A stretch of 64,000 nucleotides of DNA, from positions 62,001 through 126,000 of the forward strand of contig NZ_JAGSYC010000026.1 in the NCBI RefSeq assembly GCF_025685545.1. Reading direction: 5' to 3'. The notes beneath the pieces are model-generated. The model was given only the letters and a program-made list of their open reading frames with translations. It did no database searches and had not been told where the DNA came from. The DNA is from Granulicella paludicola. GTDB lineage: Bacteria > Acidobacteriota > Terriglobia > Terriglobales > Acidobacteriaceae. The translations under genes and the position numbers were made by a program. Each line of letters starts with the position of its first letter. The first letter of the stretch is position 1. Shown piece after piece: positions 20,764 through 25,844 of this stretch.

Positions 20764-22401
20764 CTACCTGGAGGTCATGGCCAACTGCTGCTGGTATTCC
20801 TCGTAGGGGCCCTTATGGTCGGTGATGTGGAAGTTGTCGGGGCCGCCTTCGAAGTGCCAGATGTGGGTGCCGGCCTCTTCGATCAGGTCCTGATCGTGCG
20901 TGACGAGGAAGACGGTGCCTTCGTACTTCTGGATGGCCTGGTTCAGGGCGTTGATGCTCTCAAGATCCAAGTGGTTCGTTGGTTCGTCGAGGACGAGGAC
21001 GTTGGGCTTCTGCAGCATAATCTTGCAGAAGAGCAGGCGGGCGGCTTCGCCACCGGAGAGCGCGTCGGTCTTCTTGAGGCCCTCTTCGCCCTTGAAGAGC
21101 ATCTGGCCGAGGATGCCGCGAATGTCTTCCTTGGCGGCCTTGGGGTCGTACTGGTGCAGCCAGTCCTGGGCGGTCATGCCCATCTGGATGCTGCCCTTGT
21201 GGTCCTGAGCGAAGTAGCCGATGGAGACCTCGTGGCCCCACTTGACGGTGCCGGAGTCGATGGAGACGTCCTTCTCTTCGACGCCAGGGCCGTTGGCGAG
21301 CAGGGCTTTGAGCAGCGTGGTCTTACCCTGACCGTTGCGGCCGATGAGGACGACCTTCTCCCCGCGCTGAACGATGCCGGAGAAGTTGTTGATGACGTGC
21401 TCGGTCTTGCCGTTGGGCTGGGCGTAGCTCTTATTGACCTTCTCGAACTCGAGGACGGTCTTGCCGGAGGGGCGCTCCAGCTTGAAGGCGATGTAGGGGC
21501 GCGCGATGTTGGAGCGGGCAAGATCGCTGGTGGCGAGGCGCTCGACTTCCTTCTTACGCGAGTTCACCTGCGAAGAACGTGTACCGGCGGAGAAGCGGGC
21601 AATGAACTCATTGAGCTGCTCGATCTTCTTTTCGCGCTGCGCGTTCTGGCTCTCGATGCGGCTGCGGACTTCGGTCTTCTGGAGGACCATCTCGTCGTAA
21701 CCACCGGTGTAGGTGATGATCGTCTCGTAGTCGATGTCGGCGATGTTGGTGCAGACATTGTTCAGGAAGTGACGGTCATGCGAGATGGTGATGACGGTGC
21801 CCTTGTAGCGGACGAGGAAGTCCTGGAGCCAGTGGATGGATTCCAGATCGAGATAGTTCGTAGGCTCATCGAGGAAGAGGGCGCCGGGGTTGCCGAAGAG
21901 GGCCTGCGCGAGCAGGACGCGGACCTTCTGGCCGCCCTGGAGCTCGGACATCTTGCGCTCGTGGAGCTCGTCGGGGATGTCGAGGCCCTGGAGCAGGACG
22001 GCTGCATTGGCTTCGGCTTCGTAGCCGTCCTCATCGCCGACGGTTCCTTCGAGCTCGCCGAGGCGGGAGCCGTCTTCGTCGGTCATCTCGGGCTTGTTGT
22101 AGATGACCTCGCGCTCTTCGAGGGCCGCCCAGAGGGCTTTGTTGCCCATGATGACGGTGTCGATGACGCGGTAGGCGTCGAACTCGTACTGGTCCTGCTT
22201 GAGGACGCCGAACTTGCGGGGGCGAACGACGGTGCCCTTCTGGGCGTCGATTTCGCCGGTGAGGACCTTCATGAAGGTGGACTTGCCGGCGCCGTTGGGG
22301 CCGGTGAGGCCGTAGCGACGGCCGTCAGTAAACGTCACGGAGACGTCTTCGAAGAGGAGCTTCGCGCCGTAGCGCATGGTGACATTGGATACAGAAATCA
22401 T
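20764..22401 (-). CDS. ABC-F family ATPase, YbiT-like
   Basis: The 545-residue soluble protein has two ABC domains without membrane segments. Walker A motifs are GPNGAGKST and GRNGQGKTT, signatures are ELQGGQKVRV and LSGGEAARL, and Walker B motifs are LFLDEPTNYLD and LVLDEPTNHLD. The interdomain linker (about 240-310) is charged and helical, as in ABC-F proteins. Residue patterns such as VSNVTMRYGAKLLFEDVSV and ISHDRHFLNNVCT follow E. coli YbiT closely. ABC-F proteins act at the ribosome, freeing stalled complexes or tuning translation. The GTG at 22404 directly precedes the ATG used here. No clear SD is visible. Confidence 0.93.
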   Translation of the reverse strand: MISVSNVTMRYGAKLLFEDVSVTFTDGRRYGLTGPNGAGKSTFMKVLTGEIDAQKGTVVRPRKFGVLKQDQYEFDAYRVIDTVIMGNKALWAALEEREVIYNKPEMTDEDGSRLGELEGTVGDEDGYEAEANAAVLLQGLDIPDELHERKMSELQGGQKVRVLLAQALFGNPGALFLDEPTNYLDLESIHWLQDFLVRYKGTVITISHDRHFLNNVCTNIADIDYETIITYTGGYDEMVLQKTEVRSRIESQNAQREKKIEQLNEFIARFSAGTRSSQVNSRKKEVERLATSDLARSNIARPYIAFKLERPSGKTVLEFEKVNKSYAQPNGKTEHVINNFSGIVQRGEKVVLIGRNGQGKTTLLKALLANGPGVEEKDVSIDSGTVKWGHEVSIGYFAQDHKGSIQMGMTAQDWLHQYDPKAAKEDIRGILGQMLFKGEEGLKKTDALSGGEAARLLFCKIMLQKPNVLVLDEPTNHLDLESINALNQAIQKYEGTVFLVTHDQDLIEEAGTHIWHFEGGPDNFHITDHKGPYEEYQQQLAMTSR

Positions 22402-22482
22402 CACTACTATTTTCGCATGGACGCGGGCCAGTGATGAAGGCAGCCGCGTGAATCGTGGCGATTTTGCTGGCTTAAACGTGCT

Positions 22483-22502
22483 GGCCGGACAGAAGTCCGG
22501 CC
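22483..22502 (-). terminator. GC-rich hairpin downstream of the 36-residue small ORF
   Basis: A perfect 8-bp stem ggccggac/gtccggcc with a 4-base loop lies 46 bases after the small ORF stop on the minus strand and precedes the ABC-F gene. A short TTT follows at some distance, so termination is plausible but not certain. Confidence 0.4.
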
Positions 22503-22548
22503 CTGGTCGTGAAAAAAGGTGGGTCGATCAGGGTAGGTGAGCCTGTGC

Positions 22549-22659
22549 TTAGAAGCACTCGCCGCAGGGTTCCTGCCGAGCGGCAGACTTGCGGTTCTTT
22601 GCGACGAAGTATTCAGCAGCAACAAGAGATACAGGCAAAAGAAGGAAAAGGATATCCAT
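22549..22659 (-). CDS. Small membrane microprotein (36 aa) with C-terminal CGEC motif
   Basis: This gene is too short for usual ORF cut-offs. On the minus strand AGGAGG lies four bases before an ATG that opens a 36-residue frame. The protein begins MDILFLLLPVSLVAAEYFVA, a single hydrophobic helix, continues with a basic stretch KNRKSAAR and ends PCGECF, so Cys32 and Cys35 form a CxxC pair at the C-terminus. Positive residues after the helix suggest the C-terminus stays in the cytosol. The near-perfect SD and the clean hydrophobic-then-charged design argue for a real gene. It resembles no family I can name; the opening resembles tiny CcoS-like proteins, but no oxidase genes are near. It lies upstream of the ABC-F gene in the same direction. 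Confidence 0.6.
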   Translation of the reverse strand: MDILFLLLPVSLVAAEYFVAKNRKSAARQEPCGECF

Positions 22660-22849
22660 ACGCCCTCCTAAAGGGTGTTCGTGCCGGAAAGGTTGAAGGT
22701 TTCAGGTGACGCACGCTTGTGGCTGCGTGCTTATGTATGTATAGACGCTCGACGGGAGCGAAGAGTTACATAGAATTTTTCGTGAGGCGGAACCTAAGGA
22801 AGGAAAGAAGGGAGGCGGCGTGGAGTCCGCACTCCCTCTGCTGATTGGA

Positions 22850-23602
22850 TTACTGGAGGCCGCCGGAGACTCGAATTACTTGGCCGGTGATCCAGCGGGC
22901 TTCATCCGATACGAGGAGCGCGACGGCGTCGCCGATATCGGAGGCCTCGCCGATGCGGCCAAGCGGCGTCTGTGCGAGCATGCCGACTACGAAGGGATCG
23001 TCCATCTTGATGCCCATGGAGGCAAAGCCTTCGGTGTTGACTGGGCCGGGGTTGACAGAGTTGACGCGGATCTTCAAGGGACCAAGTTCACGCGAGAGAA
23101 CCTGGGTGATGGTGTCGACCGAAGCCTTGGTAGCCGCATAGATCGAGGTTCCAGCACCGTTGACGTGGCTGGCGACGCTGCCGATGTTGATGATGCTGCC
23201 ACCCTTGTCTCCGAAGGCAGATGCGGCGGCCTGCGAGGCCAGAAGGAGACCGAGGACGTTGGTGTCGAACTGGCGGCGATACTCGTCTTCGGTAAAGGCG
23301 GAGAGCGGGCCAAAGGCGTAGACGCCCGCGTTGTTCACGAGGATGTCGACGCGTTGGTAGGTCTTGAGGGCCTCGGTGAAGAGGCGGGTGACGTCTGCGG
23401 ACTTCGCGACCGAGCCTTGCACGGCGATGGCCTTGCCGCCGGCGGCTTCGATCTCGGCTACGGTTTTATCCGCGCCGGACTTGTCGGAGGAGTAGTTGAC
23501 GACGACGGAGGCGCCATCCCGTGCGAGGGACTTTGCGATGCCTGCGCCGATGCCTTTGGACGCACCGGTGACGACGGCGACTTTACCTGCGAGCTTGCTC
23601 AT
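22850..23602 (-). CDS. Short-chain dehydrogenase/reductase (FabG-like)
   Basis: The 250-residue product is a classical SDR. The cofactor motif is TGASKGIG (12-19), followed by NNAG at 90-93, and the catalytic Ser142, Tyr155 and Lys159 (IYAATK). It ends with the RVSGGLQ tail common in this family. It reduces or oxidises a carbonyl/alcohol using NAD(P)H in the cytosol; the substrate is unknown. The frame reaches 23716, but the ATG at 23602 begins the family N-terminus MSKLAGKVAVVTG and has AGAGG upstream. The ArsR-type regulator just upstream on the same strand probably controls it or is co-transcribed with it. Confidence 0.92.
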   Translation of the reverse strand: MSKLAGKVAVVTGASKGIGAGIAKSLARDGASVVVNYSSDKSGADKTVAEIEAAGGKAIAVQGSVAKSADVTRLFTEALKTYQRVDILVNNAGVYAFGPLSAFTEDEYRRQFDTNVLGLLLASQAAASAFGDKGGSIINIGSVASHVNGAGTSIYAATKASVDTITQVLSRELGPLKIRVNSVNPGPVNTEGFASMGIKMDDPFVVGMLAQTPLGRIGEASDIGDAVALLVSDEARWITGQVIRVSGGLQ

Positions 23603-23731
23603 GGGGTGAACCTCTTCTCTTTCGAATTCGGAAAGCGCCGGATAATTCGACGCACATCGAATTGATGTCGGAGAAGAGCCAGAGGATGCGGAACGTTTCG
23701 ATAAATGTCGAAACAAGTTTGCGGGCGGGGC

Positions 23732-24034
23732 CTAGTCGCCGATGAAGCGAGCCAGTTCGTCGAGATAAGCCCGCCAGACGTGGCGCGCGAGCCGGTAGGA
23801 GGGATGGGGGCCTGCGGTGGCGATCTCGATCAGGCCTGCGTCCCGGAGTTCTCGGATGTGATGGGCGATGGTGGCGGGACGGAAGGGGTCATGCGCATAG
23901 AGCTTGCTGGTGGGGAGATTGGCGTTGGACGCAATCTGCTGCAGGATGGCGAACCGGTACGGATCAGCGAGGGCCCGGGCGATAGCGTAAGTCTGGTCGG
24001 CTTGCATTTTCGGAAAAGTGGCAACCATATTCAT
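23732..24034 (-). CDS. ArsR-family winged-helix transcriptional regulator
   Basis: The 100-residue product is one winged helix: ALADPYRFAILQQIA, then the recognition helix region PATIAHHIRELRDAGLIE and a wing with GPHPSYRL. The ArsR metal-binding ELCVCDL motif is absent (KLYAHDPFRPATI at that place), so it is probably not a metal sensor. Spacing of 129 bp to the SDR in the same direction suggests a small regulator-enzyme unit. No SD stands out; the ATG at 24028 is an alternative. Confidence 0.85.
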   Translation of the reverse strand: MNMVATFPKMQADQTYAIARALADPYRFAILQQIASNANLPTSKLYAHDPFRPATIAHHIRELRDAGLIEIATAGPHPSYRLARHVWRAYLDELARFIGD

Positions 24035-24213
24035 CGGATGGCTGCCTGAGGTCGCTCGTTATCTGGCGGCGTTTATTCGTTCGTGCCTCACGTTCGCAAA
24101 TGGGAATGGCGTTCCTGTTTGGGCGAGACTGCGTTACGAAGAGGGAGATAGGCACCGAGTGCAGGGTGGGCGTATAACGGTGGGGTTTCCAGAGAAAGCA
24201 ATAGGAGAGTGCC

Positions 24214-24630
24214 ATGAGGACCAACCTGCATTTGGTGTTTCCCGGGAGCTGTACAGAGGCGTTTGCGTTCTACGAGACGGTGTTCCAGAGCAAGAGCACC
24301 TTCAAGATGACGTACGGCGAAGCGCCTGCGGAGATGCCAACGCCCGAGGGAGCAAAAGACCTGGTGATGCATACGGCAATGCCGCTGGGGAGCATGACTC
24401 TGATGGGCTGCGATGCTCCGCCGCATATGGGCGAGCCGAAGATGGGCGGATTCCATATTTCGGTAGACATGCCGGACGAGGACGAGGTGCGGCGCATCTT
24501 CGCCGCACTGAGTGAGGGCGGGAGCGTGCAGATGCCCCTGACGCCGACCTTCTGGACGCCTCTGTTCGGCATGTGCAAGGACAAGTTCGGTGTGGAGTGG
24601 ATGGTGAGCGTTCCGGGGCCGGAGATGTAG
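24214..24630 (+). CDS. PhnB-like VOC-fold protein
   Basis: The 138-residue product belongs to the VOC/glyoxalase superfamily, PhnB subgroup. It opens with NLHLVFPGSCTEAFAFYETVF, has a central HTAMPLGSMTLMG and a second half GGFHISVDMPDEDEVRRIF, and ends FGMCKDKFGVEWMVS. The single-chain two-repeat fold usually forms a metal-dependent dimer, but many PhnB-like proteins have no known activity. AGGAG is present before the ATG. It is divergent from the ArsR regulator. Confidence 0.88.
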   Translation: MRTNLHLVFPGSCTEAFAFYETVFQSKSTFKMTYGEAPAEMPTPEGAKDLVMHTAMPLGSMTLMGCDAPPHMGEPKMGGFHISVDMPDEDEVRRIFAALSEGGSVQMPLTPTFWTPLFGMCKDKFGVEWMVSVPGPEM

Positions 24631-24663: not shown

Positions 24664-25314
24664 ATGACTCCGCAAGCACCTATCAGTTTTCACCGCGCCG
24701 AGTATGGAGGCGAAGCCATTTCAATGATGCGTTGCCGCTGGTGCGGACGTGGCCTTGATGGCGAGTTCTTTCGCGCGAACGGGGACATGATTTGTGCGGT
24801 GTGTGCGGAGCGGGCGCGGGCGGCACTGCCGCGCAACGACCGCAATGTGTTTGCGCGAGCTGCGGGTGCAGGGGTTCTGACAGCTCTAGCTGCGAGCCTG
24901 GTGTACCTGATGCTGGTGCGGCTGATGAGCTTCGATCGCTATGGATTTGTTATGGCCTTTGGAGCGATCGGCGTGGGCTACGCGATTGGCTATGCGATGC
25001 GACAGAGTGCACGAGGCGCAGGCGGGAGGCGCTATCAATGGACCGCTGCGGTACTGACGTATGTCGCGATCACCGTTGTGTTTTCAGCCATGACGCTGGC
25101 GGTGGCAGACCTGCCGTTTTGGGCGTATCCGGCTCTGGCGCTGGCTCCTGTAGCCGATTTGTTTCTGGGGCATTTTCAGCTGGGCGCGACGGAGATCTTC
25201 TTTGCTTCGATCGGGATTCGATGGGCGTGGGGGTTGCTGCGGGCGCATCCGCTGAAGGTGACGGGGCCGGAGCGGCTGGTGGCGGTGGAAGAGCCGGGGA
25301 AGTCTGTGGCCTAA
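24664..25314 (+). CDS. Membrane protein with N-terminal zinc-ribbon-like motif
   Basis: The 216-residue product has Cys24/Cys27 (CRWCG) and Cys44/Cys47 (CAVC), a treble-clef or zinc-ribbon spacing, followed by about four or five hydrophobic segments (about 66-90, 95-112, 126-147, 150-170 and 175-190). The loop [14 protein letters not shown] is basic and probably cytosolic. I do not recognise a named family. Proteins with this design are common in Acidobacteriota as uncharacterised membrane proteins. An internal ATG at 24724 (MMRCRWC) is an alternative start. Its stop overlaps by 4 bp the stop of the convergent VIT-type gene. Confidence 0.75.
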
Positions 25315-25844
25315 GAGTTGCCGATGAGGACGCCCGCGGCGAAGACGAGGCCTCCGCCGACGATGACCTGAATGCAAGAGAGCGCGAAGCCGGTGGCCAT
25401 GTACTTGTAGCGAATCCAGGAGATGACCAGCAGCTCCAGCCCGACGACGAGGTAGGCGAGGGTGAGCGCGGTGTGGACGTTCTGGATGAGGAACGGCAGT
25501 GTGTGCAGGAAGCCGCCGAGGAAGGTCATACCACCGGTGATGAGGCCTCGCGCGACTGGGTTCCCGCGGCCGGTGAGCGCGCCGTCGTCGGAGAGACCTT
25601 CTGAGAAAGCCATCGAGATGCCCGCGCCGACGGCGGCAGCGAGGCCGACCAGCAGAACGGTGTGGGATTTATGCGTGGCGAAGGCCGTCGCGAAGATGGG
25701 GGCGAGCGTGGAAACGGAGCCGTCCATGAGGCCAGAGAGGCCTGGCTGCACGACGCGGAGGAGGAACTGCTTTTCGTCTCCGTTGGCGCCGGAGAGCTTA
25801 CTGAGGTCAGAGAGGATTTCGCTCATATTTCTATTTTGAAGCAT
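25311..25844 (-). CDS. VIT1/CCC1-type (MbfA C-domain-like) iron/manganese transporter
   Basis: The 177-residue product corresponds to the membrane half of MbfA and other VIT1/CCC1 transporters. Visible features are [20 protein letters not shown], the motif [19 protein letters not shown] and three further hydrophobic helices with HTLPFLI and [13 protein letters not shown]. This half moves Fe2+ or Mn2+ out of the cytosol. The rubrerythrin/ferritin-like domain found in front of it in MbfA is missing; only about 30 residues precede the transporter. Starts at 25844 or 25826 are both possible, neither with a good SD. Confidence 0.85.

Follow-up and report, generated by a model that had tools for sequence, protein, structure and literature searches.

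A gene for a predicted single-pass membrane microprotein beside a probable ArsR-type HTH–SDR unit in some acidobacteria

Bacterial membranes hold several small single-pass regulators, such as KdpF, CydX, MgtS and AcrZ. These proteins are a few tens of residues long, form one helix, and are often encoded beside, or co-regulated with, a larger system. The small hydrophobic toxins of type I toxin-antitoxin pairs share this outline, and the cbb3 oxidase maturation protein CcoS/FixS (PF03597, TIGR00847) has a short N-terminal hydrophobic segment of the same kind. The microprotein described here comes from a 64,000-nt stretch of acidobacterial DNA, the whole of which is called the window. It resembles each of these in build but differs from the KdpF/CydX/MgtS/AcrZ type in that no Pfam or NCBIfam model matches it above cut-off and no membrane complex is recognised adjoining it. 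It is unlike CcoS/FixS in that the weak match extends over 13-15 residues, leaves the tail unmatched, scores below the curated cut-offs and is found in one of 11 members. The closest counterparts of the locus as a whole are the ArsR-type HTH–SDR pairs of the same family, which present an HTH gene, a repeat and an SDR gene in the same order at many loci; unlike these, the locus adds a peptide, no example of which came up behind the 26 SDR loci, out of 30, that lie outside known cassettes, by a filter that missed one true copy.

The microprotein gene in the window

The gene occupies positions 22549-22659 on the minus strand, with its ATG at 22659-22657 and its TAA at 22551-22549 (the plus-strand reading of this interval is a different frame), and its Shine-Dalgarno sequence AGGAGG (22664-22669, minus strand) stands 4 nt before the ATG. 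The product, MDILFLLLPVSLVAAEYFVAKNRKSAARQEPCGECF, has 36 residues and ends in CGECF. The original prediction had placed this frame, its AGGAGG and its ending exactly, and had described a hydrophobic helix, a basic stretch and a terminal CxxC, each of which is present in the window copy: the best 15-residue hydropathy mean is 2.29, the stretch KNRKSAAR follows the hydrophobic helix, and CGEC lies near the C-terminus. An AlphaFold2 model built with six sequences comprises one helix, residues 3-28 (mean pLDDT 72, pTM 0.36), and a tail of low confidence. Hydropathy and model together predict one hydrophobic helix of membrane-spanning length.

Across the 64 kb, this is the one frame of 25-60 codons whose ATG lies 3-11 nt behind an exact AGGAGG. 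Forty order-1 simulated windows contained 1.4 such frames each, and 0.025 per window (1 in 40 windows) with a segment mean of at least 2.0; the status of the microprotein as a gene follows from homology and selection rather than from this count. Pfam and NCBIfam yielded no match above cut-off, and the matches from a PDB profile search (two, E 1.6 and 4.9) and from a plasmid collection (three, E 3-4) were at chance level. We found no published description of the microprotein, and take this as weak support for its absence from print.

Relatives, purifying selection and the variable tail

The microprotein occurs in 10 of the 28 genomes of the genus (the window's own, G000, among them) and in one genome of another genus (G353), giving 11 members. 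A single-sequence search of the 28 genus genomes detected two confident relatives, in G010 (58% identity, E 2.2e-9) and G025 (53%, E 4.8e-8), and weak matches that included G026, G002 and G023 (E 0.07-0.2). The same peptide build was read in the DNA before the ABC-F gene in seven of the 28 (G000, G010, G025, G026, G021, G024, G002), three of these 28 loci having less than 1 kb of upstream DNA. A profile of those seven peptides and that of G023 then recovered three members from outside its eight rows, G022 (E 5.8e-10), G001 (E 7.3e-9) and G353 (E 1.2e-6), all directly 3' of an SDR gene. Across the family, 11 of 398 genomes matched at E 1.2e-6 or better, the next match standing at 9.3e-4. An 11-member profile found no new strong member in 397 genomes of the order (next E 0.0019 and 0.008), and in 399 genomes of the class it returned the five members drawn there and four weak matches (E 6.5e-4 to 2.7e-3); as the class search drew part of the genus only, five strong matches in 399 genomes are not a prevalence. 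The weak matches at all three levels (E 6.5e-4 and worse) cover the model in part or lie inside longer frames. Eleven genomes is a lower bound, because divergence may carry so short a family out of reach of these searches and not every genome is complete.

The 11 members cannot be counted as independent, since G010 and G025 form one close set and G021, G022 and G001 another; the peptides closest to that of the window are in G010 and G025. Bryocella elongata DSM 22489 (locus L155) is a named strain that carries the gene. All 11 copies have GGAG shortly before the ATG, and the stop codon is TAA in 10 and TAG in one. These comparisons identify the microprotein as a real gene, taxonomically restricted to some acidobacteria, and homologues, selection and hydrophobicity together uphold the original claim of a membrane-type microprotein.

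Substitutions were assessed by Nei-Gojobori counts with a one-sided binomial P. By this measure the frame is under purifying selection in relatives, as three close pairs attest: G010/G025 (8 of 12 changes synonymous, pN/pS 0.14, P 0.0012), G022/G001 (pN/pS 0.25, P 0.0017) and G021/G022 (pN/pS 0.21, P 0.00013), the last two pairs having one genome in common. The substitution-ratio check proposed at the outset is thus borne out in these pairs (0.14-0.25) but not in those that include the window copy, which are more divergent and not significant (pN/pS 0.51 and 0.59, P 0.07 and 0.10). From their pN and pS values, G021/G001 stands at about 0.43 and G000/G026 at about 0.53. The other frames give no selection signal except one antisense frame, where the signal is similar and stop codons interrupt five of the 11 members (G026, G002, G023, G024, G022).

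Among the 11 members, M1 and P9 are invariant and V13 and Y17 nearly so. Tails vary in length, Cys pattern and charge (+2 to -4). At least one tail Cys is found in 10 of the 11, G024 being the member without Cys, and residues 1-20 hold a Cys in none. The expectation that relatives would keep both the frame and its two Cys held for the frame; the two Cys are kept in G010 and G025 and not beyond them. CxxC, which the original prediction had noted at the C-terminus, is confined to three members (G000, G010, G025), and the members without it display C, CC, CxxxC or CCxxxxC, with no conserved spacing.

The ArsR-type HTH, the shared repeat and the SDR gene

A stronger association of the microprotein than that with the ABC-F gene, and one absent from the original prediction, is with an ArsR-type HTH gene, an SDR gene and a shared repeat. 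The SDR oxidoreductase gene of the window (22850-23602, minus strand) encodes 250 residues and matches NCBIfam NF005559 above cut-off; a same-strand SDR gene lies just 5' of the microprotein in 10 of the 11 members, at a gap of 85-200 nt (that of G002 was read from the peptide and repeat scans). The HTH protein (23732-24034, minus strand; 100 residues) matches Pfam HTH_20 above cut-off and an NCBIfam ArsR/SmtB model below cut-off (E 1.3e-11). Its homologue is present in nine of the 11, before the SDR gene or, in G024, before the microprotein gene. G010 and G025 lack this HTH at the cassette and have there another ArsR-like HTH, divergent, with genes behind it that we take to be SRPBCC-like. 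In G024 (locus L109) the SDR gene is absent between the HTH and repeat and the microprotein, and the genome has a further SDR gene, also with the repeat, at another site (G024:C69:79167-79916).

The members share an upstream repeat, as an ArsR-controlled unit would. The repeat, TTCGATNNNNGTCGAA, is perfect in 10 of the 11 and degenerate only in G353. It lies upstream of the SDR gene, and two matched copies stand 51-53 nt apart in G000, G002, G021, G023 and G001. The window's proximal copy, TTCGATGTGCGTCGAA (23646-23661, minus strand), is a putative operator of the HTH protein; the distal copy, 51 nt from it, reads TTCGACATTTATCGAA on the gene strand (23697-23712, minus strand). In G024 the HTH gene and repeat directly precede the microprotein gene, and by eye a second, degenerate copy can be made out some 50 nt from the first. 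The 28 genomes contain 44 repeat sites against 9 for the reversed pattern, an excess that may be overstated, since the reversed control has the same letters and other dinucleotides (no TCGA). A count by hand assigned 20 of these sites to a place just upstream of the microprotein gene (1) or of an SDR gene of the type described here (19).

Much of this arrangement extends beyond the microprotein. An SDR matching at E 1e-72 or better occurs in 106 of 300 family genomes. Among the best 30 SDR loci of those 300 genomes, one of them the window's, an HTH match accompanies 22, and the looser repeat TTCGA-N6-TCGAA occurs within 600 nt of 18, the other 12 lacking it; L158, an extra 31st row, has both. 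As the HTH gene and repeat accompany so many SDR loci in the family, HTH, repeat and SDR make up a wider unit to which the peptide was added in some lineages. Four of the 30 loci are known cassettes (the window's and those of G002, G010 and G023). Our filter gave no candidate peptide 3' of the other 26, and it also passed over the true copy in G010, whose weak Shine-Dalgarno sequence it did not accept. With the looser repeat standing before many family ArsR–SDR pairs (L187-L215), a regulon larger than the cassette may share it as an operator.

In a tree of 37 SDRs, the 10 that adjoin a peptide do not cluster in a single clade. At least five label changes are required by the supported branches, as against a mean of 9.1 for shuffled labels (0 of 500 shuffles were as low as observed). 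The window's SDR groups with those of G003 and G098, neither of which showed a microprotein next to it, although the window's peptide has its closest relatives in G010 and G025. We take this to mean that the SDR was exchanged at its locus and the peptide apparently remained, a loss-rich history being also possible.

Between the SDR stop codon and the microprotein gene, a weak hairpin is predicted at 22808-22838 on the minus strand (z -1.85; position computed by hand), with a longest uninterrupted stem of 7 bp and no TTTT in the next 8 nt. A hairpin can form in all 10 loci with an SDR (z -1.44 to -6.43, at most the first 100 nt being folded), those of G000 (-1.85) and G025 (-1.44) being weak and short of z -2, and between G022 and G001 paired changes are seen by eye on both arms. 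Such a hairpin could end transcription before the microprotein gene. TTTT follows the longest stem within 8 nt in 0 of 10 loci before a microprotein, as against 8 of 27 SDRs without one (Fisher P 0.079); this absence is only suggestive, hinting at read-through, and transcriptional read-through past the hairpin is possible. As hairpins also follow SDRs that lack the microprotein, the hairpin is not special to the cassette. Those after the SDR genes of L102-L108, L110-L112, L158 and L187-L215 differ in sequence, and the TTTT tails of the eight without the microprotein are terminator-like.

Possible roles of the microprotein

That the frame is a chance or non-coding ORF is the least credible of the readings considered: G+C-rich DNA abounds in short ORFs and the window-copy ratios are not significant, but homology, selection in close pairs, the Shine-Dalgarno sequence and gene order all contradict it. 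Almost as improbable is a diverged CcoS/FixS. The N-terminus of the microprotein does match weakly, by residues 2-16 to Pfam FixS (E 0.13) and by residues 1-13 to NCBIfam ccoS (E 0.18), yet both matches are below cut-off, FixS reaches E 1 or better in one of the 11 members, and the FixS model run on the window's whole genome gives nothing over cut-off and two weak matches elsewhere. Membership was rejected at the sequence level, at 12.5 bits against 23.1 for PF03597 and 11.5 against 28.35 for TIGR00847. No cbb3 oxidase or CcoI copper ATPase gene was recognised among the mapped neighbours, many of which are ORFs without identity. A small hydrophobic toxin of a type I pair, which would fit in outline by its size, its build of one hydrophobic helix with a short polar tail, and its patchy distribution, is improbable to a lesser degree. 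Within 22380-24250 there is one sigma-70-like promoter match, at 22749-22776 on the plus strand, and it points away from the microprotein gene; Rfam matched no family over 22380-23750, and a place in an enzyme cassette would be unusual for such a toxin.

Two neighbours might each claim the peptide. The next gene downstream encodes an ABC-F ATPase (20764-22404, minus strand; best NCBIfam model NF011646, below cut-off), and an effect on its expression had been suggested, as would follow if translation of the microprotein, as a leader peptide or an upstream ORF, controlled that gene. By the maps made, ABC-F is indeed the next same-strand gene in eight of the 11 members. In G001, G022 and G023, however, 1.6-5 kb separate the two, yet the microprotein is conserved there, directly 3' of the SDR gene, and selection acts on its amino acids; moreover, ABC-F is present in all 28 genus genomes, 18 of which give no confident microprotein match. 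Because ABC-F can be 1.6-5 kb away, we consider the leader idea very unlikely, and the ABC-F neighbour is probably not functionally tied to the microprotein. A dedicated partnership with the SDR, in which the peptide would anchor the enzyme to the membrane or regulate it directly, is less readily dismissed, and we rate it as unlikely. In its favour, 10 of the 11 members have the peptide gene immediately after an SDR gene, and 67 named ABC-F loci (eight from other phyla, some with short flanks) divide into four with SDR and microprotein, one with the SDR only (L158), one with the microprotein only (L128) and 61 with neither, the five carriers (L115, L119, L128, L155, L177) being already among the 11 members. 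Against it, the adjoining SDRs are not one clade, the window's grouping instead with those of G003 and G098; G024 keeps the peptide without an adjoining SDR, though it has one with the repeat elsewhere; and L158 retains HTH and SDR with no microprotein seen.

The best reading of the microprotein is as an accessory gene of an ArsR-controlled SDR unit. This reading draws on homology, close-pair selection, the Shine-Dalgarno sequence, gene order and shared repeats, all of them features of the DNA compared. With moderate confidence, mechanism included, we propose that this single-pass membrane microprotein is the product of the last gene of a cassette of ArsR-type HTH, repeat (putative operator), SDR and microprotein. 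The HTH protein would bind the repeats and repress; a signal would lift this repression and the SDR would be made, with the microprotein following by read-through past the hairpin. The peptide would enter the inner membrane through the helix that contains Pro9 and expose a short tail, whose terminal thiol or thiols may act through partner contact, metal binding or modification. Because the peptide is retained next to different SDRs, and in one case with none, a part in the same stress response, played at the membrane, is more likely for it than the role of a dedicated SDR subunit. A bolder and more tentative proposal is that the stable part of the ArsR-operator cassette is a membrane microprotein of an undescribed, thiol-tailed family: the enzyme gene would be exchanged or lost as peptide and operator persist, and the peptide itself would perhaps be a stress-induced membrane effector, not the helper of a single enzyme.

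Annotation readily overlooks genes of this length, and here sequence evidence alone establishes one and names its probable regulator and regulatory site. If the peptide does outlive its enzyme neighbours, it would offer a handle on the acidobacterial membrane response to the signal of the ArsR-type regulator. Of the surrounding genes, we take some to encode SRPBCC, histidine kinase, GH15 and SOD proteins, and presumably a VOC protein, whose NCBIfam match is below cut-off. Positions 25311-25844 encode a 177-residue protein whose match, below cut-off, is to positions 154-318 of the model for the iron exporter MbfA, its C-terminal half; homologues of this protein lie near the cassette in several genomes.
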